Source: Bacillota bacterium
GTDB taxonomy: Bacteria; Bacillota; SHA-98; UBA4971
Assembly (NCBI GenBank): GCA_012516125.1
Contig: JAAYXB010000084.1
Coordinates: 1-44,942 of the forward strand
Reading direction: 5' to 3'
Length of the DNA stretch: 44,942 nucleotides
In this document: positions 25,251-42,529 of the stretch, piece by piece
How positions within the stretch are numbered: the stretch's first letter is position 1
How the letters are laid out: each line of letters opens with the position of its first letter
The notes under the pieces: model-generated
What the model was told of the DNA's origin: nothing
Seen by the model: only the letters and a program-made list of their open reading frames with translations
Database searches by the model: none
Position numbers and translations under genes: made by a program

Positions 25251-25274
25251 TCCTGTCGATCGATGCCTATCCAC

Positions 25275-25304
25275 AGTATATCAAAGCATAGCCATCAGAG
25301 TCAA
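25275..25304 (-). promoter_or_regulatory. Sigma-A-type promoter of the dehydrogenase/transport operon
   Basis: On the minus strand TTGACT (25304-25299), an 18-bp spacer and TATACT (25280-25275). The same hexamers recur in the decayed copy at 841-869. Transcription would start near 25268, leaving a leader of about 200 nt. Confidence 0.7.
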
Positions 25305-25368
25305 GCATAGCCTGTGCAGGAGTATCATACCAGCATGACTTGCTTTTGGGCTATCATGCATTACCGTG

Positions 25369-25397
25369 TTGAAATACCAGCAAATGTGTCGTATCAT
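25369..25397 (+). promoter_or_regulatory. Sigma-A-type promoter of the ROK gene
   Basis: TTGAAA (25369-25374), 17 bp, TATCAT (25392-25397). An imperfect inverted repeat TACCAGCA / TGTTGGTA (25375-25382 / 25397-25404) occupies the spacer and the -10 edge and could mediate autoregulation. In the decayed copy both hexamers are kept, but the repeat is not. Confidence 0.65.
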
Positions 25398-25639
25398 GTT
25401 GGTACGGGTTTCCCCGAGACGTTCATCGTGGTCTCGAATTAACTCTCCTTGCGCGGCCGCGTGCTGCGGGGCCTGCGGCCGCCGGGTAAAGGACACGAAA
25501 ACGTTGCCCGTCCATCGGTTTTGCTCGCGGGCATCATCGGCTTTGGCTGGACAACGGCCCGCGTGTCGCGAGGGGTGGTTCTGTCCAGCGGAACGCTTGA
25601 CCTTGACAGGGAGTTGCCATGATTGTGAGGTAATGGAGC

Positions 25640-26797
25640 ATGACCGACTTGAGACGCGCCGCCGACTCCACGCTTGCCAAGAAGGTCAACACCATGCTTG
25701 TCGTGGACGCGGTCAGGAAGTACTCACCGCTCTCCCGGGCGGACGTGGCGAAGCTCACCATGCTCAGCCCGTCCACGGTTTCTGGGATAGTGTCGGACCT
25801 TGTCAGGGCCGGCCTCGTGACCGAGACGAAGGGAACCGCCGCCAGCGTTGGTGGGAGGCGGCCGATCCTTCTCACCCTGAACGCGAGCGCGAGTCTCGCT
25901 GCCATCATAGATGTCCAGGTGGCCAGGATTCTGTATGGGGTCATTGACCTCGCGGGAAGCCCGGTTTACGTCATGAAGGAGGACGCAGACCTCTCGAGCC
26001 CGGCAAGCACCGCGGACCAGGTTCTCAGGGCGGCTGCGCGAGCCCTCGCAAAGCTTCCGCGGGCGAGCGCTGGGGCGGCCGCAGGGATCGGCGTCGGAGT
26101 CCCGGGGATCGTCGACAGCAGAACGGGGGTCATCCTGAAGTCAACGCGGCTGCGGTGGGCCAACTTCCCGCTCGCGGCGCGACTTCAGCGCGAATTTGGC
26201 CTGCCCGTGCTGGTCGAGCGCGACGTGCGCGCCGCAGCCTGGGGGGAGAGGTGCTACGGGCATGCCCGGAACGTGAGCGACTTCGTCTATATGACGGTGG
26301 GGGAAGGTGGGTTCGGTGCGGGGCTCGTGGTGAACGGCAAGCCCTATACGGGTGCCCGCATGCACGCGGGCGAGCTCGGGCATATGACCGTGGACATGCA
26401 CGGCGAGAGGTGTTTGTGCGGTAACATCGGGTGTCTCGCCGGGGCAGCTCTGGCCTCGATTCGGGAGTGGAAGGCCGGAGGGGCCGATGACGCGCTCGTT
26501 GAATACTCTGCTACAGGCCTGGTTAACCTCGTCAACCTGCTCGACCCCGAGCTTGTCGTGCTCGGCGGCGACATCGGAGGACGGCCGGATTTCGCGTCGC
26601 GCGTGGAGGCGGTGGCGAAAGAGCGGGCCCTTCTGGCGCCCGGTCAGATGCCACGCGTCCTTCCGTCGCAGCTTGGGGACATGGGGGTTGCCCTTGGACT
26701 CGCCGGCCTGGTTTTCGACAGGTTCTACTGGAGCCACGCGCTCGCTCAGGATCTCCCCGAGATGGGTGAACGCGGAGGAATGAGCTACCGCACCTGA
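25640..26797 (+). CDS. ROK-family transcriptional repressor (XylR/NagC type)
   Basis: The protein has 385 residues. The ATG at 25640 follows GAGGT. The N-terminus is a winged helix-turn-helix (about residues 15-70: SRADVAKLTMLSPSTVSGIV). The ROK domain follows, with GVGVPGIVDSRTG, GEGGFGAGLVVNG, HAGELGH and the zinc motif CLCGNIGCLAG. At the place where sugar kinases carry an Asn-Asp-x-Asn segment it has ERDVRAAAWGE, which argues for a regulator rather than a kinase. It is divergent from the dehydrogenase/transporter operon and probably represses it through the 25238 palindrome, released by the imported sugar or its phosphate. A decayed paralogue is at 170-722. Confidence 0.93.
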   Translation: MTDLRRAADSTLAKKVNTMLVVDAVRKYSPLSRADVAKLTMLSPSTVSGIVSDLVRAGLVTETKGTAASVGGRRPILLTLNASASLAAIIDVQVARILYGVIDLAGSPVYVMKEDADLSSPASTADQVLRAAARALAKLPRASAGAAAGIGVGVPGIVDSRTGVILKSTRLRWANFPLAARLQREFGLPVLVERDVRAAAWGERCYGHARNVSDFVYMTVGEGGFGAGLVVNGKPYTGARMHAGELGHMTVDMHGERCLCGNIGCLAGAALASIREWKAGGADDALVEYSATGLVNLVNLLDPELVVLGGDIGGRPDFASRVEAVAKERALLAPGQMPRVLPSQLGDMGVALGLAGLVFDRFYWSHALAQDLPEMGERGGMSYRT

Positions 26798-26995
26798 GGC
26801 AGCGCCGAAAGAGGACGAGGCCGAGCGGGCGTGCCGAGCGCAGGGCGGCGGGGCCTGCCTTCCACTATGAGCGACGGCAAAAGCACGGGCGCGAGGCGGC
26901 TGGATGTCTGGATGGAGCTGGCGGATCTAATGCTGAAGCCGGAATGGCGGCGAGCGGCACCGCGGCGAGACTGGGGTACGGACGGCGGTGATACG

Positions 26996-28903
26996 ATGAA
27001 GCTGCAGACGGTGGTCATTCTTGCCGGCGCTGCTTGCGCGCTTGTCCTGGGAATCGTGCTCATGGCGGCTGCGTCATTGCTGGCGCGGTCGGTTCCGGCG
27101 TTCGGAGGACGGTTCATGAGCCAGGCGGGCGCTGCGCGGGATGCGGTCGAGGCCGGGCCGCGCCCTGGCCTGCAGCCTGGGGAGGTGTCCGAGCCCGGGG
27201 CCGGAACCAGCCCCAACCCGAGTCCCAATCCCAACCCAGACTCCAACTTGAGCCCCAACTCCAGGTCCGGGCCGGGCCCGAACCCTGGCTTCAGTGCAGG
27301 CTCCGGTTCCAGTCCCAGCTCTAGCTCTAGCTTCAGCCCCAGCTCTATCTCCAGCTCCAACCGCACTTCCAGCTCCGAGTCTGGGTCCGGGGCCGTGCCC
27401 GTGTCCGTATCTGCAGCCGGGGCTGTCGCCGCGGCCTGGGCCGTCGCCGGGGCGGACGAGGAGGAAGAAACCAACGTGGAAGCCGGTGATAACGTGACAG
27501 ATGGATCGAGCGCCTCGCTTCGCCTGGCGGCGCCGCATGGCCCTCTCGCGGACTACGTGATATACATTAACTGGGACGGGTTCGCCTATGACTACTATGA
27601 ATGGGCGAACGGCCGCAGTGGCCCGGGCACGCCTGTCCTCAACTTCCTCGCTTCGCGCGGTGCGCTCTTTACGGGTGCCCGCAACGGTTTCCCGAGCATC
27701 ACCAATCCGATGCAGATCAGCATCGTCACGGGCGCATGGCCGGCCGTGCATGGGAACAGGTACCGTTACTACGATCCTGTTGAAAACCTCGTGAAGCAAA
27801 CCGGCAGGGACAACGCCGCCGAAACCATCGCGGAGGCAGTCGAGAGGTCGGACCTGTCGTGCGCTTCCGTTCAGCAGTTCACGCTGGACGGCCGCGGAAC
27901 TTATCCCTCGGACCCATCTCATCTTTACATACAGCCTGGCGGGCCCTGGCGGCGAAGGCTCGCCGAGGCGGTCAAGATCCTCCGGCGGGAGACTGTCGTT
28001 TCGCAGAATGGACCTGTCACGGTGCCGGAGGTTCCCCGGTTCCTGGCCATCTACGCCGACGACCTGGACGCGGCAGGCCATAACTCCGGGATCGCATACG
28101 GACTATCCCTGGTCTTCAACTACGACGGGTGGAAGGCGAAAATGGTCCGGCAACTGGCCGCGATGGATCGAGATCTGGGGTTGCTCGTGGAGGCACTGGT
28201 GGACCTTGGGATCTTCGACAGGACTTCGATCGTGCTTACAGCCGACCACGGGATGTCGCCTGTCTCAGGAAAGTCCAGCCTGCCGGATCTTCTCGCCACG
28301 CTGCGTGGTCTTGGCCTAAGATGCGAGTTGCTCGCGCCGGGCGAGCGAGCGGCAGACGACACGGACGTGGTGCTGGTGAGCGCGGGGCTTGCCGTCCAGT
28401 TCTATTTCAGGCGGGACATCACGCTGACCCGGTACGACGCGATCATAGATGCGCTGTCAACCGAGCCGTATTTCGGGGGGTACATGTCCTACCACGAGCT
28501 CAGGAAAGCCGGCGCCCACCCGGACCTGGGGCAACTGCTCATATGGCCCAGGCCGCCCCACCACTTCAAGACTCAGGGATTTTTCTTCGGAATAGCCGGC
28601 CAGCACGACTCCGGCGACGACACATCTCGCCACGTGTTCATGCTGCTGAGCGGAGCGGGCGTAAGGCACGGGGTTGTCATCGATAGGCCCGTCGAAATCA
28701 TCGACGTGGCGCCCACCATCTCCCATCTCCTCGGAATAAGACCGCCCGCGAATGCCACGGGCCGCGTGCTGGCGGAGGCGCTGCTTCCCGGTGCTCCCGC
28801 GTCCGGCCTTCAGCAGGAAAGCCACGGCCAGCAAGAACCCCGGCCTGCCCCTCGCAGGTCGCTGGATCAGCAGGGCGTGCGCCGGGAGCGGACTCCAGAA
28901 TGA
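26996..28903 (+). CDS. Membrane-anchored type I phosphodiesterase / nucleotide pyrophosphatase-like protein
   Basis: The protein has 635 residues. The ATG at 26996 is chosen because a signal-anchor helix follows at once; the ribosome site is weak, and an in-frame ATG at 26867 is possible. After the anchor comes a striking Pro/Asn/Ser/Gly-rich spacer (about residues 55-140) encoded by degenerate short repeats. The alkaline-phosphatase-superfamily domain then shows INWDGF (metal Asp), a Thr nucleophile candidate in FPSITNPMQISIVTG, YADDLDAAGH, LTADHGMS and a His in GQHDSGDD. This is the pattern of phosphodiesterase/pyrophosphatase (Phosphodiest) enzymes. The substrate is unknown. It sits directly downstream of the ROK gene on the same strand. 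Confidence 0.85.
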   Translation: MKLQTVVILAGAACALVLGIVLMAAASLLARSVPAFGGRFMSQAGAARDAVEAGPRPGLQPGEVSEPGAGTSPNPSPNPNPDSNLSPNSRSGPGPNPGFSAGSGSSPSSSSSFSPSSISSSNRTSSSESGSGAVPVSVSAAGAVAAAWAVAGADEEEETNVEAGDNVTDGSSASLRLAAPHGPLADYVIYINWDGFAYDYYEWANGRSGPGTPVLNFLASRGALFTGARNGFPSITNPMQISIVTGAWPAVHGNRYRYYDPVENLVKQTGRDNAAETIAEAVERSDLSCASVQQFTLDGRGTYPSDPSHLYIQPGGPWRRRLAEAVKILRRETVVSQNGPVTVPEVPRFLAIYADDLDAAGHNSGIAYGLSLVFNYDGWKAKMVRQLAAMDRDLGLLVEALVDLGIFDRTSIVLTADHGMSPVSGKSSLPDLLATLRGLGLRCELLAPGERAADDTDVVLVSAGLAVQFYFRRDITLTRYDAIIDALSTEPYFGGYMSYHELRKAGAHPDLGQLLIWPRPPHHFKTQGFFFGIAGQHDSGDDTSRHVFMLLSGAGVRHGVVIDRPVEIIDVAPTISHLLGIRPPANATGRVLAEALLPGAPASGLQQESHGQQEPRPAPRRSLDQQGVRRERTPE

Positions 28904-28947
28904 CGTCGAGAACAAGTTCGTTGTGCGCACTGTCTCCCGACGTTTTT
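28903..28947 (+). terminator. Possible intrinsic terminator
   Basis: ACGTCG (28903-28908) and CGACGT (28938-28943) form a 6-bp stem with a large loop, followed by TTTT, directly after the phosphodiesterase stop. The long loop makes it a weak call. Confidence 0.35.
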
Positions 28948-29035
28948 CCCCTCAGTTGACCTCCTCTGCTCCGTTGCCTGGTGACGAAGCCGGCCACTGC
29001 CATGGCCACAAAATCGGCGGACAAGCGGACAACTC

Positions 29036-29449
29036 GTGGACAGCCGCGCTACAGTCCGTGGACAACCGGCGCCCGACCTGCCGTGCGTCAGCTCGGTGCA
29101 CTGGCACGCAGCGTCGAGGGAGGTTGTGTACCGCGTCCGCCTTCACCCGGTCGGCGGGCGCAGCCGGGTAGGGCCGGAGGGGGACGCGGACATCGCGTTC
29201 AGGCCGGGGCGGCCCGGGGCGGTCTCGGTGCGCAGCCCGGCGGGCAGCGGGCGCGATCTCTCGGACATCAGCGCAGCGAGCCGGGGCAGGGAGATCGAGC
29301 TGAAGATACCGCTCAGGCTCCTTGGAAACCCCAGGACGCTCTTCGTGGCTGTGGAAAGCAGGTTCCAGGGGATCATGATCGACCAGACCATGTGGCGCGT
29401 CCTCGATCTCAACGGAGCTTTCGGGACGGAACCAGACGCCCCGGGATAG
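29036..29449 (+). CDS. Unrecognised short protein, possibly a gene remnant
   Basis: The frame has 137 residues from a GTG without a convincing ribosome site. The C-terminal half is protein-like: GREIELKIPLRLLGNPRTLF, then VAVESRF and DQTMWRVLDL. This pattern resembles the end of beta-sandwich carbohydrate-binding or DOMON-like domains in secreted enzymes. The N-terminal 40 residues look random and there is no signal peptide. It may be the surviving C-terminus of a larger secreted protein. Codon pattern and GC are like the neighbours. Confidence 0.4.
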   Translation: MDSRATVRGQPAPDLPCVSSVHWHAASREVVYRVRLHPVGGRSRVGPEGDADIAFRPGRPGAVSVRSPAGSGRDLSDISAASRGREIELKIPLRLLGNPRTLFVAVESRFQGIMIDQTMWRVLDLNGAFGTEPDAPG

Positions 29450-29544
29450 CAGGAGTGGTACTGAGCCATGTAGAAGTCTGCTCGAGATCGCTGGATGGAG
29501 GTCTCTTCCTGGAGAAGGGCGGGCCTGAAAGGGGCGGACGGCTC

Positions 29545-30081
29545 ATGAGACTGTCTGCAGTTGATACGGAAAGATGCATCGGCTGCCAGAGCTGCATGTT
29601 TGCGTGCGCGAGGCGGCTTGGTGAGGCGGGCCTCGCCAGCACGTGCATAGGAGTGAGGTCCATCGGAGGCATGGAGCGGGGCTTCAAGGTGGTCGTGTGC
29701 AGGGCTTGTGACGACCCGCCCTGCGCGAGGGTTTGCCCTGTGGGCGCGCTGCAGGTCCGCAAGGGCGGAGGTGTGCGGCTGGACGAGGCGCGGTGCATTG
29801 GGTGCGGCCACTGTCGTGATGCGTGTATCATCGGTGCGGTCTTCTGGGATGACGAAACCGCGAAGCCGATGATCTGCGTCCACTGCGGCTACTGCGCGAA
29901 GTTCTGTCCGCACGGGGTGCTTAGCGTAGAGACGGCCGAGACGACTGAGAGCGCTCCCGGCATTGGCATGGCCGTCAGGGGAGAGAGCATGGAGAGGCAG
30001 GAGAGGCTAGAGAGAGCGCCGCAGGCGAACAATGCGGTAGACGCAACAGAGAAGGCGGAGGGGGCTGGGGCCAATGCTTAA
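29545..30081 (+). CDS. Ferredoxin-type protein with four [4Fe-4S] clusters
   Basis: The protein has 178 residues. The ATG at 29545 has AAAGGGG upstream at a slightly long distance. Four Cys clusters are visible: CIGCQSCMFAC, CRACDDPPCARVCP, CIGCGHCRDAC and CVHCGYCAKFCP. Together they would hold four [4Fe-4S] clusters in an electron-transfer subunit of the HycB/DMSO-reductase-B style. The C-terminal 45 residues form a charged low-complexity tail with no Cys. It overlaps the aldehyde ferredoxin oxidoreductase gene by 8 bp and is almost certainly its electron acceptor subunit. Confidence 0.92.
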   Translation: MRLSAVDTERCIGCQSCMFACARRLGEAGLASTCIGVRSIGGMERGFKVVVCRACDDPPCARVCPVGALQVRKGGGVRLDEARCIGCGHCRDACIIGAVFWDDETAKPMICVHCGYCAKFCPHGVLSVETAETTESAPGIGMAVRGESMERQERLERAPQANNAVDATEKAEGAGANA

Positions 30082-31846
30082 AGCAGATCCTCTCGCGAAC
30101 GTCCTCTACATCGACCTTTCGAAGAAGCGGCACTGGGTCGAGCGGCGGGAGGACCTCTTCGAGAAGAACATAGGCGGGGCGGGCGTGGCGGTCGAGATCC
30201 TGCACGAGGAGTGTCCTCAGGGCGCGGATCCGCTTTCCCCCGAGAACCCCATCATATTTGCGGTGGGTCCGCTGACGGGGCTGTTCCCCCTGGCCTCGAA
30301 AACCGTGGCCATGTTCAAGTCCCCGCACACCGGCAACCTCGGCGAGAGTCATGCAGGTGGGCGAAGCGCCGTCGCCATCCGGACGGCCGGGTACGGGGCG
30401 ATCGTCATCCGAGGAGCAAATGATATCCCGGGGTATGTGGCTATCCACGGCAGCGAGGTCCATTTCCGCGACGCCCGCACCCTCTGGGGCATGAGGAACA
30501 GCTTCACCGTTGGTCGCATCATCCGGGAGAACGAGCCGGCGGCCGGGCTTCGCAGCATCATGCGCATCGGCAGGGCGGGAGAGAAACTGATACCGTACGC
30601 CTGCGTTACCACGGAGAGCTACAGGCATTTTGGCAGGCTGGGGCTCGGCGCGGTCTTCGGCAGCAAGAAGCTGAAGGCGGTCGTGGTGTCGGGCAAGCAC
30701 TCGCTGCCGGTGGGCGGGGGCGGTGCCGCGGAATATCGGCGCGTGTACGACCAGATATACCAGGAGGCCGTTGCCTCGCCGGTCATGAAGAAATACCACG
30801 ACCTCGGGACGCCGGAGAACGTCCTGCCCTTGAACGCCCTTGGTGGCCTGCCGACGCGTAACCTGAAGGACGCCAGGTTTGAGGGGGCTGACCGTATCTC
30901 CGGCGAGGCCCTGGCCGAGCATTACCTGGGGCGGAGGCTGGCGTGCTCTCACTGTCCGGTGGGGTGCATACACATCGCGGCGCTCCGGGAGCCTGACGAG
31001 AACGAACCTTACTTTTACAAGACCAGCATGATCTCCTACGACTACGAGCTCATCTACGCGCTTGGCTCGATGCTCGGCGGGTCGGACCCCGAGGGCCTTC
31101 TGAAGCTCATCGACCGCATCGAGGTCTACGGGCTTGACGCCATGAGCACCGGCGTGGTGCTGGCCTGGGCGACGGAGGCCCAGGAGCGTGGTCTCGTATC
31201 CGAGGACGCGGCGGGCGGCCTACGGCTTGCCTGGGGCGACTATCCCGCGTACCTCGAGGCAGTGCGGCGCATCATCGAGCAGCCGAACGAGTTCTACGCG
31301 GCCCTCGCGCGCGGCGTTGAGCACGCTGCCTCGGTATACGGGGGCGAGGACTTTGCCCTCGCCTTCGGCGGCAACGAGATGCCAGGCTACCACACGGGTC
31401 CCGGGGCATACCTGGGGTTCCTGGTGGGCGCGCGGCACAGCCACCTGGACAGCGCAGGTTACAGCGTGGACCAGAAGGTGCTGACGAAGAAGCAGATCGG
31501 CCCGGACGAGCTTGCGCGCGAGATCCTGAAGGAGGAGCGCTGGCGACAGGTCCTGTCCAGCCTGGTTGTGTGCTTCTTCGCCCGCGGCATATACAGCCCC
31601 GACACGACCGCGGCCGCCCTGCGCGTGGCCGGGTTCGACTGTACTTCCGAGGATCTCCAAAGGATCGGCGCAGTGATACATACCCGCAAGTACGCCTTCA
31701 AGTTCCGCGAGGGGTTCTCCTTCGACACGCTCCGCGTGCCCGAGCGGGTCTCCGAAACCCCAAGCCCCGTCGGCACGCTAGATAGCCGGTACCTCCAAGC
31801 CGCTGTTGACTACGTATGCAGTGACATCTCTAGAGCAGGGTGCTGA
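30074..31846 (+). CDS. aor: Aldehyde ferredoxin oxidoreductase family protein
   Basis: The protein has 590 residues, a normal family length. The ATG at 30074 lies within the end of the ferredoxin gene. The N-terminal domain has NVLYIDLSKKRHWVERRED and the GGAGVAVEILHEE start typical of tungsten pterin enzymes. The cluster motif CSHCPVGC, the pterin-binding DAMSTG segment after YGLDA, and the later Cys in LVVCFFARGIYS are all present. The family oxidises aldehydes to acids in the cytoplasm using tungsten-bis-pterin and a [4Fe-4S] cluster, passing electrons to ferredoxin. The exact substrate subgroup is not resolved. The molybdopterin-binding protein at 43757 could serve cofactor supply. The 277 bp after the stop contain no recognised feature. 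Confidence 0.94.
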   Translation: MLKADPLANVLYIDLSKKRHWVERREDLFEKNIGGAGVAVEILHEECPQGADPLSPENPIIFAVGPLTGLFPLASKTVAMFKSPHTGNLGESHAGGRSAVAIRTAGYGAIVIRGANDIPGYVAIHGSEVHFRDARTLWGMRNSFTVGRIIRENEPAAGLRSIMRIGRAGEKLIPYACVTTESYRHFGRLGLGAVFGSKKLKAVVVSGKHSLPVGGGGAAEYRRVYDQIYQEAVASPVMKKYHDLGTPENVLPLNALGGLPTRNLKDARFEGADRISGEALAEHYLGRRLACSHCPVGCIHIAALREPDENEPYFYKTSMISYDYELIYALGSMLGGSDPEGLLKLIDRIEVYGLDAMSTGVVLAWATEAQERGLVSEDAAGGLRLAWGDYPAYLEAVRRIIEQPNEFYAALARGVEHAASVYGGEDFALAFGGNEMPGYHTGPGAYLGFLVGARHSHLDSAGYSVDQKVLTKKQIGPDELAREILKEERWRQVLSSLVVCFFARGIYSPDTTAAALRVAGFDCTSEDLQRIGAVIHTRKYAFKFREGFSFDTLRVPERVSETPSPVGTLDSRYLQAAVDYVCSDISRAGC

Positions 31847-32123
31847 GATGATTGTCGCCGTTCGTCGGGTGACTGGTCGAAGCCATGAGCTTATCGGCTG
31901 ACTAGGGAAGTTATGCACCAAGCCTACAGTTGACTACCTCTGAATAGCGGCATAACCTGTGTAAGCACTCAACTTGCATTGTGACCGCCAGTATTGCTCA
32001 GGTCGTCACCGTGCGTAAGGAAAGTCCAGGCCCTACGGGGCATTTGAATACACACTCAAGACCGGTGCGCGCGGTGTCGACTTTCTCCCTGGCTGCACGC
32101 AACCTCGGGCGCGATTAAGTCAT

Positions 32124-35100
32124 TTACTTTGCTGCCGATTGCCCCTCCGGCTGCAATCCCATGGCATGAAGCGCCTCGAGCACGGTTTTGAGATTCTCTT
32201 GAACGTCAGGTTGATCAGGGTTGTCCCTCAGAGCTGCCTCAAAACACTGCGCTGCTTCTTCCGGTCTGCCAGTTCGGAACAAGCAGATCCCTTTCAAGTT
32301 CATCCGTTCAGGATCCAGATCGGCAGGGTCAAACCGATCTAACCACTTAAGTGCTGTTTCGAAGTCGCCCTGGGCCATGGCCACTATTGCCATATTGTGC
32401 CATACATCTGTGTTTGTCTCATCGAGCTGTAGGGCCTGCATAAGGACCGCGTGCGACTGTGATATATGCGAGAGATGGAAAAGCCTGACTGCTTCAACGA
32501 GCAGTGCTTCAGTGGTCCATTCGGACACAAGGGGAGCGTAAAGGTCCCGGGATTCGAATGACTTGGTGAGAATCTGTTGCCCTTTCTGGTAGTCGACGTT
32601 CAGGTCAATCCCCCATTTTTGCCTAAACAGGAGGTGGTCGTTAGGCGTAGGTTTCTCCACCTGTAGCTTGCCGAAACGTGTAGAGGAGGATCGATGGACC
32701 AAGACGTCTCTAGCTGCGAGCACATTATACCCAACCATCATTGCGCGGAGCGCGAAGTCGCTCTCCAGAACCGCTCTACTCTGGAATCTGACATCGAAGC
32801 CCCCAATCTTGTCGAGAAGTCTACGGCTGATAACCGTACAGAAGGTAGTAAGCAGCTGTTCAGGGCTAACCAACCCAGCATGTCGACGGTGGTGCGCCCT
32901 TTCGTTCAGAGTCGGATCGTCATGTTCTTCCTCTGAGCTTGGAAGCCCCTCTGGTGAGTCCTCTCTATAGCTGTTGACTGCGCTCACAATTGCGCCGTCA
33001 TTTGCTACACTTATGCATGCGAGTAATCGAGCCAGCCACGCATGCGTAACAACCACGTCCCCGTCCATGAGCACAATGTAATCGCCCTTAGCGACACGGA
33101 TTGCGTTGTTTACAGCTCCCGCGTAAGACCCGCTTGTAGCCCGCACCACAGTAACATTAGGATGAGAGGTCGCCACTACGTTCACATAATCCGTTACGGA
33201 GCTCTCTTTGCCCAAATCGCACAAGATCACCTCGATTTCCTCTTGAGTGTGCCTGAAGACGTTCTTTACGCACTTTACGACATGCTCGAGTTCGTCGTCG
33301 CACACGATAATGATGCTTGTGAGACCCTGAGTGGGCCGGAACCAGTCAATTCCCCACAACTCGCGACCCGATGGGGGTGTGCCGTTATAATACGCGCGAA
33401 GCTTGCCATACAGCTGGTTAGTACTTTGTTGGACAAGATAGCGCGTGCGCACTTCGGGCTCACTTCGAAAGCTTACCTGTCCTTTGTGATAGACAAACAC
33501 CTCTGGCACTACCGCCAAGCGATAACCTGCTTCTCTCAAGCGGTGGCTGATTTCAAGGTCCTCGTTGCCGAGGAAGAGATCCTCGTCAAAAAGCCCGCTT
33601 TCTTCCAATACGCTCCTGCGGACCATAAGGCAGAAGCCTATTAGGAGTTTGGTGTCTAAGACCTGGCGCGCGTACCGCTCCTTCATAAACGTGGCAACCT
33701 GCATCCCATTGCAGTTCTCCCCTATTTGTCCAATATAGTGGTGGAGATTCTGGAGACCGGCAGCGAAATTGGATACGGGCCCAGTGGCCGCAATTGTTGC
33801 ATCCTCTAAAAGAGGCCTGATTAAACCGTCAAGCCACCCCGGGAATACTACAGTGTCAGGATTCAGCATGCATATGAACTGGTTTTCAGCCTCTCGTATA
33901 CCAATATTGGCTGCTGCAGCGTAGCCAAGGTTTTCGCGAAGGGATATGATGTTGATCCTGCTGTCAGGCAACATGCTTTTGAGCGTCTTCACATATTCCA
34001 GCGAGGGGTCGTTTGAATGGTTATCAACTATAATAACTTCATCGTCTTTGCCCACCGTGGCCAAGACTGACTCTAAACAGGGACCGATGGTTGACAGTGA
34101 GTTATACATCACTATTACTACACTTACCGGGGCGCGTTTTGGGTTCGTCTCGTTCATGCACGGCACAGGTGTACGTATGTCGCAGATCAAGTTCATCCAT
34201 CGACGGTGCAGCACATTCAGGTTGTCAGCCTCGAGCGCATGTCGTCCCGGGGTCTTTGCTTCATGGTGAATGGCTTTACTCTTAGGATTATAGATCACCT
34301 TATACCCTTGATTCCTCACTTTGAGACAGAGGTCGACATCCTCATAACCGTTGCGGTACGCCTCCTCGAACCCCCCTACGTTGAAGAAGAGATCCCTTCT
34401 TATAAGCATGGAGGCTCCGGTAACAGCCCAGACTTCTTGCAAGGCTCCCTCTTCCTTATCCTGTTGCCTGTACTTCATGTGGGAGGGCGTGATAGGATAA
34501 GGAGCCGCGTAGCATAGATCAACGCCTGCATGTTGGAGAGTTCCGTCAGGAAAGAGGAGTTTCGACCCTACTATGCCAATGGAGGCGTCCGCGTCGGCGG
34601 CACTGACAAGCTCCTCAAGCCATCCTGGCAGCACTTGTGTATTGTTGTTAAGAAATACAAGGTACTTCCCAGTAGCTTCACCTGCGCCTCGGTTACACGC
34701 GCACGAAAAGCTCATGTTGCTTGGATTAACCACCACGTTTACACTCGGGAATTCTCTTTCGATCCTGTCGGCGGACCCGTCGGTTGAACCGTTGTCGACT
34801 ACGATTATCTCGTACTTATCTGACTGCCGTAGGTAAGGACCCAACGCTGATAAGCATGCCTGAGTGTACGTCCAGTTGTTATGTATTGGGATAACGATTG
34901 AACAAATCGGCGTAGACAAGACAGGTTCTCTGGAAGCCTGAGATGATGTCGCACCTGGGGTTACAGGCACTGCAGCAGCGTACGTCCGACCCACATCGGG
35001 ACTCACTTGAAGTCTCCTCACCCGTGTATACATCTCAAGCCATTGCCGCGCACCGGTGCGCAGAGTCCACGATTTTCTGACTTCGTCGAAAGCGTTGGCA

Positions 35101-36629
35101 GCAATGTGCCTCCGGAGGGCTGTGTCAGAGATGAGCGTTTCAATAGATTCTTCCCATTCCTCGGGGTCATTCCCCACCAGTAACCCGGTCTCCCCGTGCT
35201 TAACTGTATTGGCATAAGCTTCCAGGTTTGAGTACACCCCAGCTATTCGGCAAGCAGCATATTCTAGGAATTTTATGTGACTCTTGCATCTATTGAATGG
35301 ATGGTCTATAAGCGGAGCCAGGCCGATGTGAATGTTGCTACGGCGTAGCTGTCGAGCGAACTGCCTGTAATCCGCAGTGACTCCTTCGAACACCTCGACG
35401 AAGTCCAAGTTTCTAAGAGACGGTACCGCTACCCCGTACGACCGGAAAACTACTTTGCCAGCATGTCTCTTAAGAATTCGCCGGATCGCTGGGGCAACCA
35501 TTGCGAGGTCCGCTTCGTGTCCTGGGGTGCCACAATAACCCAAGATCACGGGTCCTGACCCACCCGAGTCGCCGGGTGAGCCAGCGTCGGGAAACCAGAT
35601 CTCCTCGTCAAGAAAGTTGGGTAACACAAAGACCCTGGGGTTGTAATCGGCCAGCGCGCGGCGAAGGGGCTCCGTGCTCACGCACACAGCATCGGCCTGT
35701 TCTATTAGCTCGATGATCGAACCACGCCCACCATCATATACTCCCTTTAGGGCATGCCAAGGTGGGAGGTCGATGAGGAGATCATCCAACTCATAGATAA
35801 CAGGTTTGTTCATCTCCCTGGCTCTTGCCAGAATACAATCCACTGCGCCCCGTATCATTGGGACCTCCCGTTGTATTACCAAGACGTCTGCTTGCGCAAT
35901 GGAATCTACGTGCAGTTTCAGCCCTGTGGGACTTGGACGTAGCCCCCGGAGGAACTGGAGCCCACCCTCCTGCATAAGGTACTTCAATGGGCTGACAATC
36001 CTAATGGCTGGGCAAGCGTTCCAGGGCTCCCCTGTAAAGTAGGCCAGGACATTGAGTTTCTTGGGTGGACAGGTATTCCTTCTGAAAACGAGGGCCCAAG
36101 GAGAGATGAAGCTTACATCCGAATCAACGTCATGATAGAACCCCTGCAATGAAAACTCACGGACCCAATACTCTCGCGGCCTCACATTGATGTGAGTCGA
36201 TTCAAACAAGTCGCATGGAGTCGAGGAGATGATGACGACCGGCGCATGTGCGCACATGTTGGCGATTGCCTGTGTGCCTTCGGCCGGCGTAAGATGTTCG
36301 AGAACCTCGATGCAGACGATCAAATCGTAGTCTCGGTTCAGAGGTTCAAGTATAGATTGGACACGACAGTACGGACGGATATCTTCCCGCACCCGGCTAA
36401 TTGCATACTCGGATATGTCAATTCCTTCTGCTTCCACTCCGCGGTCTCGCAAGGCCTCCACGAGAAACCCCATGGCGCACCCGACATCCAAAACTGACCT
36501 CGGCCTAAACCTGGCAGTTATCTGCTGAGCAACGTTGCCAAAGAACTGCATCCATTGGGGTTGGTTGCGATCGTACGGGATCTCCCCGCACTGTTTCTCA
36601 TAGTAGTCCTTGCCATAAATAGTATCCAT
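32124..36629 (-). CDS. Giant methyltransferase / GT4 / triple GT2 / TPR glycan enzyme
   Basis: The protein has 1501 residues. The ATG at 36629 follows GGAGGT. Order: class I SAM methyltransferase (about 1-185, VLDVGCAMGF, IEVLEHL); GT4-like glycosyltransferase (about 190-525, ELDDLLIDLP, FLEYAAC, HGETGLLVGND); GT2 domain A (from about 575, SIVIPIHNN, VVDNGSTDGS, FLNNNTQVLPGW); GT2 domain B (from about 835, VVIVMYNSL, VDNHSND, MLNPDTVVFPGW); GT2 domain C (from about 1100, SIIIVCDDE, LMDGDVVVTHAW); TPR tail (about 1380-1490, VWHNMAIVAMAQGDFETALK). GT2-A has Asn where Asp is usual in the metal-binding motif. It should build a surface glycan using dTDP-rhamnose and other donors. GC is near 50 percent in a sampled line, lower than the neighbours. 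The 202 bp upstream contain a TACGGG / CCCGTA stem (36778-36807). Confidence 0.92.
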   Translation of the reverse strand: MDTIYGKDYYEKQCGEIPYDRNQPQWMQFFGNVAQQITARFRPRSVLDVGCAMGFLVEALRDRGVEAEGIDISEYAISRVREDIRPYCRVQSILEPLNRDYDLIVCIEVLEHLTPAEGTQAIANMCAHAPVVIISSTPCDLFESTHINVRPREYWVREFSLQGFYHDVDSDVSFISPWALVFRRNTCPPKKLNVLAYFTGEPWNACPAIRIVSPLKYLMQEGGLQFLRGLRPSPTGLKLHVDSIAQADVLVIQREVPMIRGAVDCILARAREMNKPVIYELDDLLIDLPPWHALKGVYDGGRGSIIELIEQADAVCVSTEPLRRALADYNPRVFVLPNFLDEEIWFPDAGSPGDSGGSGPVILGYCGTPGHEADLAMVAPAIRRILKRHAGKVVFRSYGVAVPSLRNLDFVEVFEGVTADYRQFARQLRRSNIHIGLAPLIDHPFNRCKSHIKFLEYAACRIAGVYSNLEAYANTVKHGETGLLVGNDPEEWEESIETLISDTALRRHIAANAFDEVRKSWTLRTGARQWLEMYTRVRRLQVSPDVGRTYAAAVPVTPGATSSQASREPVLSTPICSIVIPIHNNWTYTQACLSALGPYLRQSDKYEIIVVDNGSTDGSADRIEREFPSVNVVVNPSNMSFSCACNRGAGEATGKYLVFLNNNTQVLPGWLEELVSAADADASIGIVGSKLLFPDGTLQHAGVDLCYAAPYPITPSHMKYRQQDKEEGALQEVWAVTGASMLIRRDLFFNVGGFEEAYRNGYEDVDLCLKVRNQGYKVIYNPKSKAIHHEAKTPGRHALEADNLNVLHRRWMNLICDIRTPVPCMNETNPKRAPVSVVIVMYNSLSTIGPCLESVLATVGKDDEVIIVDNHSNDPSLEYVKTLKSMLPDSRINIISLRENLGYAAAANIGIREAENQFICMLNPDTVVFPGWLDGLIRPLLEDATIAATGPVSNFAAGLQNLHHYIGQIGENCNGMQVATFMKERYARQVLDTKLLIGFCLMVRRSVLEESGLFDEDLFLGNEDLEISHRLREAGYRLAVVPEVFVYHKGQVSFRSEPEVRTRYLVQQSTNQLYGKLRAYYNGTPPSGRELWGIDWFRPTQGLTSIIIVCDDELEHVVKCVKNVFRHTQEEIEVILCDLGKESSVTDYVNVVATSHPNVTVVRATSGSYAGAVNNAIRVAKGDYIVLMDGDVVVTHAWLARLLACISVANDGAIVSAVNSYREDSPEGLPSSEEEHDDPTLNERAHHRRHAGLVSPEQLLTTFCTVISRRLLDKIGGFDVRFQSRAVLESDFALRAMMVGYNVLAARDVLVHRSSSTRFGKLQVEKPTPNDHLLFRQKWGIDLNVDYQKGQQILTKSFESRDLYAPLVSEWTTEALLVEAVRLFHLSHISQSHAVLMQALQLDETNTDVWHNMAIVAMAQGDFETALKWLDRFDPADLDPERMNLKGICLFRTGRPEEAAQCFEAALRDNPDQPDVQENLKTVLEALHAMGLQPEGQSAAK

Positions 36630-36831
36630 GGCCAGACCTCCGCCTTTGGGGTATTCAGTAACCTTCCGTATGGTCAGCTTTTACTGCATACCTAACACAG
36701 TGATACCGGTTTGTCTGGGTGTTTCACACAATAGCACCTAGTGAGTTCACACGTTTTTCCCGCACGGGCGACTCCAGTACGGGTACGCGTGTACCATAGT
36801 GCCCGTATGGGCAGACGGGTCTCTACCTGAC

Positions 36832-37821
36832 TCACTGTCTTGTAGTGGCTGACCCGCGCGGGCGACCTCCTTGTCTATACCACTCTACGACTTCGAGAAT
36901 CGCATTCTCAATGAAATGTCGCGGAACCCACCCCGTTTCGCTCGACAGCTTTGCAGCGCACAGCGCATACCGCCTGTCGTGTCCCGGCCTATCGGGCACG
37001 AACTGGATCAGGCTTTCCGGACGGCCGGTTATTTTGAGGATCGCCTTTGCGAGATCGATGTTGCGCCGCTCGCAATTGGCGCCGATGTTGTAGATTTCGC
37101 CAACCCGGCCGCGTTCTATCAGGAGGACGATTGCGCGGCAATGGTCTTCGACATGGATCCAGTCGCGAACGTTCTGGCCATCCCCGTAAATCGGGAGGGG
37201 TTTGTTTTGGAGAGCGTTGAGGATCATCACGGGAATGAATTTCTCAGGATACTGATACGGACCGTAGTTGTTTGTGCACCTGGTGATGATCACGGGCACT
37301 CCGTAGGTCTTGAAATACGCCCTGGCCATGAGGTCCGCCGCAGCCTTGCTTGCCGAATACGGACTGTTGGGAGCTAGCGGGCTTTCCTCGGTACAGGGCG
37401 GGTCATCAGGCCCGAGGGAACCATAGACTTCATCGGTGGAAATCTGGACGAACCGCCCAGTTCCGTACCGCCTCGCGGCCTCCAGCAGTACCTGGGTTCC
37501 CTTCACGTTTGTTTCAATGAACGGAGTGGGATCGAGTATGCTCCGGTCTACGTGGCTTTCGGCAGCGAAGTTGACAACCACGTCGGGACGCTCGTTTTCG
37601 AATATCCGGTTCACGAGTTCCCTGTCGGCAATGTCGCCGCGCACAAACGAGTACCTATCTTTGTAAGCAGGATTGCTGGTGACGTCGGCAAGGTTCTCCA
37701 GGTTGCCTGCGTAGGTAAGCTTATCCAGGTTTATGACGTGCCAGTCTAACCGTGTCCCCATCACGTATCTTATGAAGTTTGACCCGATGAAACCGGCGCC
37801 GCCTGTTACGAGCAGTTTCAT
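36832..37821 (-). CDS. rfbB: dTDP-glucose 4,6-dehydratase
   Basis: The protein has 329 residues, a normal length. The ATG at 37821 has GGGAGG nine bases upstream. The extended SDR motifs are complete: GGAGFIGS near the N-terminus, FAAESHVDRSI, the active-site triad segment STDEVYG followed by YSASKAAAD, and TNNYGPYQYPEKFIP, which identifies the dTDP-glucose enzyme. It converts dTDP-glucose to dTDP-4-keto-6-deoxyglucose, the second step of dTDP-L-rhamnose synthesis. It lies between the reductase gene and the giant glycosyltransferase on one strand. Confidence 0.96.
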   Translation of the reverse strand: MKLLVTGGAGFIGSNFIRYVMGTRLDWHVINLDKLTYAGNLENLADVTSNPAYKDRYSFVRGDIADRELVNRIFENERPDVVVNFAAESHVDRSILDPTPFIETNVKGTQVLLEAARRYGTGRFVQISTDEVYGSLGPDDPPCTEESPLAPNSPYSASKAAADLMARAYFKTYGVPVIITRCTNNYGPYQYPEKFIPVMILNALQNKPLPIYGDGQNVRDWIHVEDHCRAIVLLIERGRVGEIYNIGANCERRNIDLAKAILKITGRPESLIQFVPDRPGHDRRYALCAAKLSSETGWVPRHFIENAILEVVEWYRQGGRPRGSATTRQ

Positions 37822-37825
37822 GGTA

Positions 37826-38830
37826 TCAACCCTCCCGGCGCTCGTGCGCTTTACCCAGACCGCTTAGAAAGCGGGCGAGAGCATCCTCCCATGGCGGGAG
37901 AACGTAGCCGATGGTCTCACGCAAAGGATACGCGTCCAGCGCTGAGTTCCTCGGGCGCCTGGCCGGTCGCGCGAATTCCTCCGACGTTACCGGCCGCACG
38001 TTAATGGCAAGACCGACACGCGCAAATATGGCCTTCGCGAACTCGTACCAGGTGGTCACGCCTTGGTTTGTCACGTGGTAGATGCCGAAGCAGCCGGTCT
38101 CCAGCAGGTCGGCGCAAGCCTTTGCTAGGTCTACGGTGTACGTGGGCGAACCTCGCTGGTCTGCGACGACCGGTATGTGCCGTCTGCCACCTGACGGGGC
38201 TCGCTGATTCTCTGCGGTTGCCCCTTCCCGTGTGGTAAAGACGCTTGCCCTCTCATCGAAACCCTGCACCGCACCGCGAGGAGCGCTAACTGTGCGGGAA
38301 GACTCAAGCTCGTCGGCACCACACTTATCCGCCATCCTCAGCATGGTGGTGACGAAGTTCCTCCCGTGCTCACCGAACAACCAGCTTGTCCGAACCAGGT
38401 AGTGCTCAGGAAGGAGGGATCTAACGTAGTTCTCCCCCCACCACTTGCTGGCCCCGTAGACGTTGAGGGGCGAGGGTAGATCCCAGATAGTGTATGGCTC
38501 TCCCTTTTCCCCGTCGAAAACGTAGTCTGTACTTATGTGTAGAAGCACGGCACCCACCCGACGACATGCCAGAGCGAGATTTCGCGGACCGAGGGCGTTG
38601 GCCGCAAATGCTGCCTCTCTATCTCGTTCTGCATCGTCTACACGCGTATATGCGGCACAATTCACTACTACGTCCGGACGCAACGCGCTGATGCGCTCGC
38701 GCACAGCCCCGATGTCTGCGATGTCGAGGTCCTCATGGGTAAGCGCGACGACGTCGTGCCGCCTAGCGGCAAGCTCGAGCGTCATGTCGCGGCCGAGCAT
38801 TCCTCCTGCTCCGGTAACGAGGATTCTCAT
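37826..38830 (-). CDS. rfbD: dTDP-4-dehydrorhamnose reductase with a 45-residue insert
   Basis: The protein has 334 residues. The ATG at 38830 has GGAG upstream and starts directly at RILVTGAGGMLGRDM. Motifs of RmlD are visible: VVNCAAYTRVDDAE, HISTDYVFDG, the YxxxK pair in NVYGASKWW, RTSWLFGEHGRNFV, and VVADQRGSPTYT. Between MLRMADKC and VVADQRG lies an in-frame, low-complexity insert of about 45 residues (near 38190-38330) absent from usual homologues, which are close to 285-290 residues. It performs the final reduction to dTDP-L-rhamnose. The gap to rfbB is four bases, so the two are co-translated. Confidence 0.93.
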   Translation of the reverse strand: MRILVTGAGGMLGRDMTLELAARRHDVVALTHEDLDIADIGAVRERISALRPDVVVNCAAYTRVDDAERDREAAFAANALGPRNLALACRRVGAVLLHISTDYVFDGEKGEPYTIWDLPSPLNVYGASKWWGENYVRSLLPEHYLVRTSWLFGEHGRNFVTTMLRMADKCGADELESSRTVSAPRGAVQGFDERASVFTTREGATAENQRAPSGGRRHIPVVADQRGSPTYTVDLAKACADLLETGCFGIYHVTNQGVTTWYEFAKAIFARVGLAINVRPVTSEEFARPARRPRNSALDAYPLRETIGYVLPPWEDALARFLSGLGKAHERREG

Positions 38831-38859
38831 ACTGGACTCCAGCCCTTCCCAGCGTGGTC

Positions 38860-39324
38860 TTATCCGTGCTTTACTCCCCACGAGTACGGTATACCCGGGT
38901 CGTCGTACGGCACTCGGAATTCATCGGGGTTCGAGTAGTTGTAAAGCTCCGTCGGGAAGTTCACTATCAATGCCGTCTCGTCCCCTTCTGCTGTAAAGCC
39001 GTGATATACGAAGGGCGGGATCTTTACGAGGATAGGATTCAGGTTCCCCATGTGAAACTCGTTGATCGTTCCCTGTGTTGGGCTGTCCTTTCTTGCGTCG
39101 AAGAGCACAACCTTTGCCATGCCATGGACGCACACGAAATGATCCCATTGTTTCCTGTGGTAATGCCACGCCTTAACAACGCCCGGGTAACAAGCTGTCA
39201 CATAACATTGCCCGAACCGATCGAACTCCGGCCAGTCGGAGCGCAGCATCTCCATGAGGTAACCCCGCTCATCTGGGATCAGCCTGAGCTCGCGAACTCG
39301 CACGCCTTCTATAACCGTCTTCAT
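38860..39324 (-). CDS. rfbC: RmlC-like dTDP-sugar epimerase (cupin)
   Basis: The protein has 154 residues. The ATG at 39324 follows GGAGG. It is a small cupin of the dTDP-4-dehydrorhamnose 3,5-epimerase family: DERGYLMEMLRSDWPEF, ACYPGVVKAWHYH, WDHFVCVHGMAKVVLFD, and IPPFVYHGFTAEG. The His in AWHYHRKQWDH replaces the usual GLHFQ context, so it belongs to a divergent subgroup sometimes annotated only as RmlC-like. Its place between rfbA and rfbD supports the 3,5-epimerase step. Confidence 0.85.
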   Translation of the reverse strand: MKTVIEGVRVRELRLIPDERGYLMEMLRSDWPEFDRFGQCYVTACYPGVVKAWHYHRKQWDHFVCVHGMAKVVLFDARKDSPTQGTINEFHMGNLNPILVKIPPFVYHGFTAEGDETALIVNFPTELYNYSNPDEFRVPYDDPGIPYSWGVKHG

Positions 39325-39365
39325 GCGGCCTTCCTCCTGCACAAGCGTCGGCGCCGATCTGCGCT

Positions 39366-40433
39366 TCACACCGCCACCTCGGAATCGTCTCCGAGAAACA
39401 GCCGAAGGACCTGCCTGTTGTCGTTGGAATGCGACACCTTGACGTTTCTGCCGATGAGGCTGTCTTCGATCCTGGACACGTTACGAAGGTCACAGCATTC
39501 CAGCACAACAGAGTGTTCAATTGATACACCTTCTAGGCGTGCCCCGGACCCTATGGCGGTGAAGGGTCCTACAAAGCAATCAACGAGAGTGGCACCGTCT
39601 CCGATGACAACGGGGCCCCTCACCGTGCTCCTCGTAATGACGGCGCCCTTTGCGACCGCGACTCGACCCACAATGCGGCTTTGGTCGTCCACGCTGCCTT
39701 CAATTGCGCGGGACGCGTATTCATCAAGGACGATTCTGTTAGCCTCCAGGATATCGTCTTTCTTCCCGGTATCCAGCCACCATCCGTCCAGGACCCTTGC
39801 TTGCACTTCGCCTCCGTGTTCGATGAGGTATTGGATTGCGTCGGTGATCTCGAGTTCGCCGCGCCAGGACGGCTTTATGGCGTCAATGGCCTCATGTATC
39901 TCCGGAGAGAAAAGATAGACTCCGACCAGCGCGAGATCGCTCGGCGGCTCCTTGGGCTTCTCGATGAGTCGCAGAACCTGCCCGTCCGCGCCGACCGCAG
40001 CTACGCCGAACTGTCTCGGGTCAGGTACCGCTTTTAGCAGAATAGTCGCGCTGGGGCTATTTGACAAAAACTCGTTTACCAGGGAGCCAACACCGCCCTG
40101 GATGAGGTTATCCCCCAGGAACATGAGAAATCTGGAACGCCCAAGAAAGCTGCGCGCTATTTTCACCGCGTGGGCCAGTCCGCCGGGGATCTCCTGCAGG
40201 ACGTAGGTTATTTGAACTCCCCATCGCGATCCATCGCCAACGGCCTGACGGACCTGATCCCCTGTTTCGGGGGAGATCACCACGGCTATGTCCCGAAGGC
40301 CCGCCGCTGCCACCTGCTCTATCACAAAGTGAATGATAGGCCTGTTGGCCACAGGGATGAGTTGCTTTGCCGTGGTGTACGTTAAAGGCCGAAGTCTTGT
40401 GCCTTTGCCTCCAGAGAGGATGAGGGCCTTCAT
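39366..40433 (-). CDS. rfbA: Glucose-1-phosphate thymidylyltransferase, long form
   Basis: The protein has 355 residues. The ATG at 40433 begins [18 protein letters not shown]; the longer frame to 40535 adds a non-conserved head. N-terminal nucleotidyltransferase domain with the GGKGTRLRP signature, [19 protein letters not shown] and [18 protein letters not shown]. The C-terminal 100 residues form a left-handed beta-helix (repeats such as [22 protein letters not shown]), as in the StrD-type long enzymes rather than the 290-residue RmlA. It makes dTDP-glucose, the first step of rhamnose synthesis. The ribosome site is weak. Confidence 0.94.
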
Positions 40434-40544
40434 CGCGCTGCCTGGACTGTCGGCGGTTTGTCTTGCCGTCACTCTTCTCACCTCGGCAAGTGGAATTTTT
40501 CCATATCGCGACCGAACGGGAATCGTATGAGCCATGCTGTTTCC

Positions 40545-41858
40545 TCAGGATGAGCTCTTACTCTTACGTGCGCTGAGCGCTATGTCGAGGTTTTCCCGGG
40601 CCCCGGGGCAATCGGCGTCGAGCTCTATGGCTTCCCGGAAGCACTCGACTGCTTTGTCAACATAGCCTACCTGGAAATGGCACATTCCCATGAGGTTGAA
40701 GCGTTCGGAGTCCATGTCTTGATGGGGTACCTTCTCCCACGCCTCCAAGGCCAGGCGGAAGTCCCTTTGGTTCATGGCGATGAGCGCCATGTTGTGCCAG
40801 GCATCAGGGTTGTTCGGCTCGAGCTCAAGAGCCTTTGTGACCGCTACATAGGACGCCTCGATGTGACCCTGTTCAAACAGCCTCACCGATTCGGCCAGCA
40901 ACGCCTTGCTTGACCACTCGGATACAAGGGGAGAGTAATGGGATACTGGGTCGAACGGGCGCGCCAAGATGGGGAGCGGGTTGTAGCCTCCTGCAGACAG
41001 CTCAATGCGCCATTTCTTCGCGAATTTCCATGCGTTTTCCAGCATGATCGCGGCGTAGTCCATGCGAGCTCCCTTGAAAGTGATGCTGCCGAAATGATGG
41101 ACGAACACGTCCCCAGCTATAACCACGTCGAACCCTGCTATGATCGCGCGAAGGCAGAAATCGTCGTCCTCGAAGTTGCCGGTTCCAAACGTTACGTCAA
41201 ACCCTCCTATGCGGTCTATGACCTCGCGTCGGACAAGCATACAAAACCCTATGACACGGGCGACTTTTATCAGCCGGCCAGCGTGCTTCCTGGCGAACGC
41301 CACGGCATACTCATCAAGCTTCCTGACGTCATAATGAGGGTCGACCACCTGCTGGGGCCCCACGACGTAGTTGCTCATCGGCCCCACGAGGCCGATTCTG
41401 GTGCTGCGGGCTGCGCATGCGTGGAGGCCTCCGAGCCAGCCGGGGGTCACGATGACATCGTTGTTGAGGAGCAAGATGAAGTTCCCTGCAGCTTCGCGGA
41501 TGCCCTGGTTCACGCCGCCGGCGAACCCGAGGTTCCTGTCGTTACGCACGATCTTGATACCTGTTATTGATGCTGGAAGATGCCAGGCTGTGTCGCCGGT
41601 GCGCGACACGAGCGAATCCAGATAGTTTCGCGTTCCGTCCGTCGAACCGTTGTCCACGAAGATAAGCTCAACCGGCTCGGGCGTGTGGCGCAGGATGCTC
41701 CGGACGCACGCGGTGGTGTAATCCACCTGGTTGTAGCACAGTATGATTATGCTTGTGAGTCCAGCTGAACCTGTTCGCCCGTCCGCTGCCGTGGGCGCAT
41801 TTGTCCTTTCGCCACGGATTTTGAGGCTGTTCACCTTTGCTCGGTGCTCCCCTGACAC
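40545..41858 (-). CDS. GT2 glycosyltransferase with TPR tail
   Basis: The protein has 437 residues. The GTG at 41858 is the longest start; an inner GTG at 41834 is possible, and neither has a strong ribosome site. GT2 domain: TSIIILCYNQVDYT, FVDNGSTDGT, LLNNDVIVTPGWLGGL, IGGFDVTFGTGNFEDDDF. The TPR tail (from about residue 320) includes NPDAWHNMALIAMNQRDF. From YSPLVSEW onward it is clearly paralogous to the C-terminus of the 1501-residue protein (YAPLVSEW onward). First gene of the rhamnose/glycan operon. Confidence 0.92.
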   Translation of the reverse strand: MSGEHRAKVNSLKIRGERTNAPTAADGRTGSAGLTSIIILCYNQVDYTTACVRSILRHTPEPVELIFVDNGSTDGTRNYLDSLVSRTGDTAWHLPASITGIKIVRNDRNLGFAGGVNQGIREAAGNFILLLNNDVIVTPGWLGGLHACAARSTRIGLVGPMSNYVVGPQQVVDPHYDVRKLDEYAVAFARKHAGRLIKVARVIGFCMLVRREVIDRIGGFDVTFGTGNFEDDDFCLRAIIAGFDVVIAGDVFVHHFGSITFKGARMDYAAIMLENAWKFAKKWRIELSAGGYNPLPILARPFDPVSHYSPLVSEWSSKALLAESVRLFEQGHIEASYVAVTKALELEPNNPDAWHNMALIAMNQRDFRLALEAWEKVPHQDMDSERFNLMGMCHFQVGYVDKAVECFREAIELDADCPGARENLDIALSARKSKSSS

Positions 41859-42529
41859 AAACTGGTTATACCCTCACGTAGGAACGCATGCAGGTTTCGT
41901 GCCATTGAAGGGGTTGCAAGCGAAGGGCGATCGGAACGCGCGGTCGTGATGATACAGATAACCGCTGCTTCAAAGTCCTGGGTACGCAGTGTGTAGTCGG
42001 TTCGCAATTAACCGACTGCGACGTTTATCCTGCTTTAATGCTGAACCCAACTGCTTTGCTGCGGGACCCGCGGCCGGCCGCAGCGCTTGGTCCGGTGTAA
42101 ACGGTAGACCCGCAGCACTGCGCGCCATTGGTGGCACTATGTCTTTTCACGTAACCCAGGGGCAAATGAGTAACGTGCCGCACGAGCCTGGGCAATTTCT
42201 TCACAGTTGTTTGTCGCCTTACATTCGCGACCCCGGGAACACCTTCTCATCTTTTCCGCGTCCACCGCATCTTGTTGGGGCCGAACTCTTCAGCCTGTTT
42301 CCAGGCCTGATGATGACGACCACCGCCATCCCTGGGTTCAGGTTCTCCTGGGAGTTCGAGCCACGAGCTCGCCCTGGGCTCCCTCGCTTCTCGTGCCTTC
42401 CGCTCCGTCGGTGCAGGCGCGGCAGGCAAGTCAAGCGGTACCTTTGCGCTGTCGCTGGCCGGAATCGGATGCGGTACAACGGCACCGTTGTCAACCCGGC
42501 TTGCATTGAAGACCGTGGCGGCGACGTTT
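41859..42529. other. Intergenic region upstream of the glycan operon
   Basis: No gene was recognised. Open frames here lack ribosome sites and recognisable motifs. It should contain the promoter of the minus-strand glycan operon, but no confident -35/-10 pair was found. Confidence 0.4.

Follow-up and report, generated by a model that had tools for sequence, protein, structure and literature searches.

A mosaic methyltransferase–glycosyltransferase chain with a degenerate GT2 domain in an exchangeable rml-linked cassette

The P0001 gene and its surroundings

The window, the whole stretch of 44,942 nucleotides analysed here, contains an open reading frame of 1501 codons, P0001, that runs on the minus strand from an ATG at 36629 to a stop at 32124 with no internal stop (Table 1). 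A GGAGG ribosome-binding site lies shortly 5' of the ATG, and the plus strand over the same interval is riddled with stops; a preliminary description of this DNA had given the frame and its 1501 residues correctly, leaving the strand unstated. Pfam confirmed the domains claimed there, namely a methyltransferase (MT), four glycosyltransferase (GT) domains and TPRs in one chain, with a GT1/GT4-type match at about residues 363–532, three Glycos_transf_2 stretches (E 2.9e-73) and a TPR match at residues 1394–1480. The MT joins the GT-B domain directly, and no coiled coil was noticed by eye between the MT and GT domains.

On the minus strand, the gene order is P0002 (GT2-TPR), rmlA, rmlC, rmlD, rmlB, P0001. 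From reading the sequence, we take the island to lie between a gene resembling aldehyde ferredoxin oxidoreductase and a MoeA-like gene. Promoter and terminator scans of the locus gave results near chance level. The P0001 gene has a GC content of 0.524, the rml and P0002 genes 0.55–0.61 and the genes on either side about 0.65. The lower GC noted previously was thus real (base counts of 30/60 and 41/60 were exact) and the composition is atypical; GC3 is even across all domains of P0001 (0.57–0.60).

Table 1 Features of the P0001 locus (window coordinates)
Feature	Position	Strand	Basis
P0001, MT-GTB-GT2-GT2-GT2-TPR protein, 1501 aa	32124..36629	-	ORF and Pfam
SAM methyltransferase domain, residues 1-188, DVGCAMG at 48	36066..36629	-	Pfam Methyltransf_23 at 33-119
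GT-B (GT4/GT1-type) domain, residues 189-560	34950..36065	-	Pfam Glyco_trans_1_2 / 1_4
GT2-1, residues 572-830; NNN replaces NND, YEDVDLC intact	34140..34916	-	Alignment, chain comparison
GT2-2, residues 831-1098; NPD, NEDLEIS, end motif ELWGIDWF	33336..34139	-	Alignment, chain comparison
GT2-3, residues 1099-1345, degenerate; DGD retained, other motifs gone	32595..33335	-	Conserved-column count, tree
PLVSEW linker and TPR tail, residues 1346-1490	32160..32594	-	HMM of P0002 orthologues
rmlB (P0003)	36832..37821	-	Pfam; 96% to G001
rmlD (P0004)	37826..38881	-	Pfam RmlD_sub_bind, 332 bits
rmlC, putative, 169 aa	38860..39369	-	Named from sequence reading and operon position
rmlA-like nucleotidyltransferase (P0005)	39366..40535	-	Pfam NTP_transferase
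P0002, intact GT2 plus linker and TPR, 437 aa; paralogous to P0001 C-terminus	40545..41858	-	Pfam, HMM, column count
Exchanged segment; conserved flanks in congener G001 enclose no counterpart	31891..36819		blastn stops at 31890, resumes at 36820

Window positions 30040–31890 and 36820–41907, on either side of the gene, have collinear counterparts in the congener G001 at 91% nucleotide identity; a different chain occupies the slot there, and the P0001 gene is thus a swapped cassette. The slot measures 4929 bp with P0001 and 3594 bp in G001, where the gene for a 987-aa MT-GT2-GT4 chain points the other way; one GT2 stretch of that chain aligns with P0001 (38% over about 240 aa), along with weaker GT2 matches, and the rest is unalignable. 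In two other genomes (G002 and G005), the same flanking genes enclose what reads as an ABC-transporter cassette (Wzt-type ATPase match, 34%), and this interval has no P0002 and no close rmlB. Elsewhere, P0002 and rmlACDB occur with a 1155-aa MT-GT4-GT2 chain in G013, and the same set, with a 1164-aa chain, is divided over two contig ends in G016. The P0001 gene is a mosaic cassette, and the occupant of its slot varies between species.

Between the flanking genes, two congeners carry an ABC-transporter cassette together with a long protein containing GT2, in place of the rml island (L072:6201-13496 and L074:4406-10892), and this site looks like an exchange hotspot. No repeats of note were found at the cassette borders, and we make no claim for an insertion-sequence remnant at the G001 cassette, HTH_Tnp_1 being below threshold (17 bits versus a 24-bit cut-off). 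In the congener G004, matches to window positions 12.4–18.2 kb and 27.5–31.4 kb lie in rearranged order on one 15-kb contig (L073; window 12414–31368). On contig C85, the window's genome carries another rmlACDB operon, which has diverged and precedes a lone GT2 gene of 230 aa (L126:5143-9652), and a 690-aa phosphatase-like ORF in the window (26831–28903) includes a low-complexity stretch rich in Pro, Gly, Ser and Asn (27034–27500).

Motifs and ancestry of the domains

The three GT2 domains carry NNN (residues 661–663), NPD (923–925) and DGD (1189–1191) as metal-binding motifs, all as previously described. Across 86 aligned GT2 domains, triples follow a regular pattern by position: NND/EDVDLC, NPD/NDDLELS and NND/FEDDDFC. 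Judged by this alignment, NPD is the motif normally present, across phyla, at the second position of a widespread triple, and NNN in GT2-1 is a true deviation, the sole Asn at the last DXD position among the 86. Codon 663 is AAT, one base away from GAT, and GT2-1 has changed at 5/26 conserved columns and largely keeps its remaining motifs; on these grounds, we rejected NNN as proof that GT2-1 is inactive.

GT2-3 is altered at 13/26 conserved columns and at 23/47 of the columns of its own clade, other members of which have 0–5 changes. Its DGD is intact; VDN, N.GF..G and ED are missing (LE in place of ED). With these other catalytic-site motifs lost, GT2-3 looks dead: a degenerate copy whose catalytic site is apparently mostly gone. 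In the GT2 of P0002, none of the 26 columns is changed. A DXD motif with terminal Asp together with the ED base is present in GT2-2 and P0002 and deviates in GT2-1 (NNN) and GT2-3 (LE). The preliminary description had offered different donors or an inactive copy to account for the three motifs. One copy does look dead, but it is the third, with DGD, and NPD is no oddity. The third-position GT2 of an Aquificota chain (L050) is equally degenerate, and loss at this position may recur. The chains that occur with P0002 in G013 and G016 (L052:6341-9808 and L054:7754-11248) have a terminal GT2-like domain with 17/26 and 16/26 columns changed, respectively, and the free P0002 is intact in both.

Chains from three other families of the phylum (G255, G200 and G221) align continuously with P0001 residues 554–1370, at 44–46% identity over about 800 aa. 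Identity to their tandem GT2s is 52–55% for GT2-1 and 51–54% for GT2-2, and both domains group with G255/G200 in the GT2 tree (100% bootstrap). The GT-B domain has no convincing match in these three chains and is closest to a 3744-aa chain (L042; 32%, E 3e-54), and the MT is weakly similar (22–26%) to that of the G255 and G221 chains. By these comparisons, P0001 is a mosaic, with at least three sources traceable in one protein. A split of the domains into separate genes, with a frameshift at this locus, had been named as an observation that would overturn the single-chain view; GT-B-GT2-GT2-GT2 is unbroken in L042, as is the triple GT2 in G255, G200 and G221, and these continuous homologous chains, with the open frame, rule it out. 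The 3744-aa chain is a single ORF (L042:357-11591, MAG RX1_metabat.bin.17) that combines multiple GT-B and GT2 domains with an FkbM methyltransferase domain and a GT56-type match. Another chain, in a Thermodesulfovibrionales MAG (L043:228-8825), is at least 2866 aa long, its frame running off the contig, and contains TPRs, a GT-B domain and five GT2 stretches.

The C-terminus has a different affinity. Over linker and TPR, the tail is 44% identical to P0002 (E 5e-41), which bears out the paralogy reported earlier. Against an HMM of P0002 and its orthologues, from which P0001 was left out, P0001 scored 156 bits and the next other protein 54 bits, and the linker alone had no match outside the P0002 family and P0001 among the loci compared. 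On this evidence, the linker and TPR tail fall in a class-specific family whose other members are P0002 and its orthologues, and the gene-fusion origin proposed for the tail holds. The domain-wise phylogeny suggested as a check gave a mixed picture: GT2-3 grouped with P0002 (support 99/92; 98/86 in a reduced set), but on a very long branch, and an AU test did not reject grouping with the third domains of triples (p 0.168). Derivation of GT2-3 from the triple itself thus stands unrejected by this test, and the linker and TPR tail favour P0002. Because of the AU result, it is the tail that carries the fusion claim, and a P0002-type origin of the GT2-3 domain itself is likely rather than proven. 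Either P0002 was duplicated and fused into P0001, or P0002 split off from an earlier chain.

Compared with the P0002 family, GT2-3 is 33–36% identical in its GT2 part and 40–48% in its tail. Inside the family, conservation is higher in the GT2 part (62–71% between genera) than in the tail (51–68%). A tail closer to P0002 than its GT2 part would be expected if catalysis had been released and docking kept.

An AlphaFold2 model of residues 560–1501 showed three alpha/beta domains followed by a TPR helix bundle (mean pLDDT 77); it drew on ten homologous rows, and its pTM of 0.43 makes the relative placement of the domains unreliable. Model residues 12–543 had PDB GT-A matches with Z above 20, and the best overall Foldseek PDB matches were the tandem GT-A polymerases K4CP and heparosan synthase. 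No chain labelled WsaF was among the PDB sequence matches, though a fold may be shared, and SunS was not among the structural matches listed for the model, though it may resemble it. A model of residues 1–575 was discarded as unusable (pLDDT 46, two-row alignment).

Flagellin context and proposed function

In all three of G255, G200 and G221, the chain is a few genes at most from flagellin and FliD, and giant chains at L044, L050, L056, L099 and L102 are also near flagellin. A related chain (L101) lies beside rml genes and a Wzm/Wzt-like pair, and the loci of the other chains showed neither flagellin nor such a pair, in some cases because the flank was short. All of these loci were chosen by similarity to P0001 and are not an unbiased sample. 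Adjoining rml genes are common to P0001 and several of the chains from flagellin loci. The position of the nearest relatives in flagellin loci points to a protein glycan, probably on flagella or a different surface protein.

In the window's genome, flagellin is on contig C92, adjoined by a 531-aa GT2-TPR gene, and P0001 is on C71, outside the flagellin locus. This flagellin has 408 aa (L124:9202-10428), compared with 277 aa in G001 (L127:9700-10533), and the additional residues form a central segment rich in Ser and Thr (24% where checked) that could carry glycans. A phylogenetic profile of flagellin against P0002 was set aside as uninformative because 15/17 genomes of the class have flagellin. 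The genome also encodes SLH proteins, which are possible acceptors. No Wzm/Wzt transporter was found in the operon or the window ORFs read, and no Wzt_C domain in the 98% complete genome, though a Wzt lacking that domain may lie elsewhere.

Our preferred reading, to which we assign a probability of about 0.45, is that P0001 and P0002 assemble a rhamnose-containing, O-methylated glycan, most likely on flagellin, with the seemingly dead GT2-3/TPR unit as a dock and the gene as an exchangeable cassette. P0001 would be a soluble cytoplasmic glycan-assembly enzyme partnered with the intact GT2-TPR protein P0002. Rml enzymes supply dTDP-rhamnose, and the adjacent rmlACDB genes would provide dTDP-L-rhamnose to P0001. 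The GT-B, GT2-1 and GT2-2 domains would add sugars one after another and the MT domain would O-methylate the product, all of these activities, with their donors and linkages, being predicted. The GT2-3/TPR unit may be a P0002-derived module that docks the acceptor protein and/or P0002; this role is suggested by the loss of half of the 26 columns in GT2-3 while the tail stayed closer to P0002, and by TPR precedents. Flagellin, as suggested for the nearest relatives, would be the likeliest acceptor because those relatives and further giant chains sit by flagellin and the genome itself has flagellin and no Wzt_C. Against the preferred reading stand the position of P0001 away from flagellin, the L101 chain by Wzm/Wzt-like genes, the SLH proteins as alternative acceptors, the similarity-based choice of loci and the altered DXD of GT2-1.

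Assembly and capping of a repeating glycan, as envisaged in the preliminary description, was not borne out: there is no adjacent Wzm/Wzt and no Wzt_C, the MT is fused to GT-B without a coiled-coil ruler, and the relatives are in flagellin loci. These points also bear on the main rival, a WsaE-like polymerase, which we regard as possible, if on the unlikely side. P0001 and P0002 would then polymerize rhamnose-containing repeats on a lipid carrier, with the MT capping the chain and a transporter exporting it, its final site being the cell wall or an S-layer protein. An MT and tandem GT2s in one chain with rml genes match WsaE and its cluster (PMC2943079, PMC3898925), the L101 neighbourhood and the SLH proteins fit, and the best structural matches are tandem GT-A polymerases, but WsaE itself lacks a GT-B and a TPR. 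In a further reading, a GT may have been converted into a docking module, the dead fused GT2-TPR pairing with P0002 from the same operon and holding acceptor and partner during a third transfer in trans, and single-gene cassettes resetting the glycan type; this we consider rather unlikely. Activity of all three GT2 domains with different donors, their motifs reflecting donor choice, is improbable. NXD motifs can work with dTDP-Rha (PMC11231755), DGD is a standard DXD, and GT2-1 and GT2-2 are otherwise well conserved; however, GT2-3 lacks three further motifs, and an NPD shared by second-position GT2s across phyla marks a clade, not the donor of P0001. That the gene is decaying or artefactual, a functionless product of recent chimerism or of an assembly join, is very improbable, for although the draft genome has 98 contigs and 4.15% contamination, GT2-3 is degenerate and NNN is a single base from NND (AAT versus GAT), the 1501 open codons, ribosome-binding site, uniform GC3, intact GT2-2 and a domain order common to distant chains argue against it.

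P0001 would place most of a glycan-assembly programme within one exchangeable gene, in chains that appear to evolve via domain-level mosaicism. With a degenerate fused copy and a free, intact paralogue both present, scaffolding by a pseudo-glycosyltransferase becomes directly testable, and the flagellin context of the relatives ties scattered giant methyltransferase/glycosyltransferase chains to protein glycosylation.

Comparison with known systems

WsaE of Geobacillus stearothermophilus NRS 2004/3a, in which an MT and two GT domains are joined and which caps a rhamnan, resembles P0001 in its N-terminal MT, tandem GT domains and rml genes in the cluster (PMC2943079, PMC3898925). Compared by description, it differs in that its partners are WsaF and an ABC transporter and the glycan on which they act is an S-layer rhamnan. 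Klebsiella pneumoniae O7 ORF6 likewise combines an MT with two dTDP-Rha GT2 modules, one of them NXD, and has a stand-alone GT partner; unlike P0001, it includes a kinase domain, sets the GT modules apart from the MT by a coiled-coil ruler, acts in LPS, and has no TPR or GT-B (PMC11231755).

For P0002 and the P0001 tail, the closest parallels are proteins that pair a GT with a TPR for acceptor recognition: the GT2+TPR proteins encoded in flagellin glycosylation islands, for which a flagellin glycosyltransferase role is predicted (PMC13317340), and FlmG/Maf-1 (PMC7591256; cited in PMC13317340). The GT domain of FlmG alone fails to restore flagellin modification (PMC7591256), and the TPR confers the acceptor specificity of Maf-1, as cited in PMC13317340. 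Unlike P0001, these proteins have a single GT domain and no fused MT, and Maf and FlmG are not GT2. Flagellin glycosylation islands of Geobacillus resemble the P0001 locus in uniting rml genes, GTs and MTs; they form a strain-variable flagellar locus, with separate genes beside flagellin (PMC5109656). Chondroitin polymerase K4CP (2z86), the best overall Foldseek match, shares the tandem GT-A domains at about 16% identity; it has two GT sites that use UDP-sugars and, unlike P0001, no MT, GT-B or TPR.
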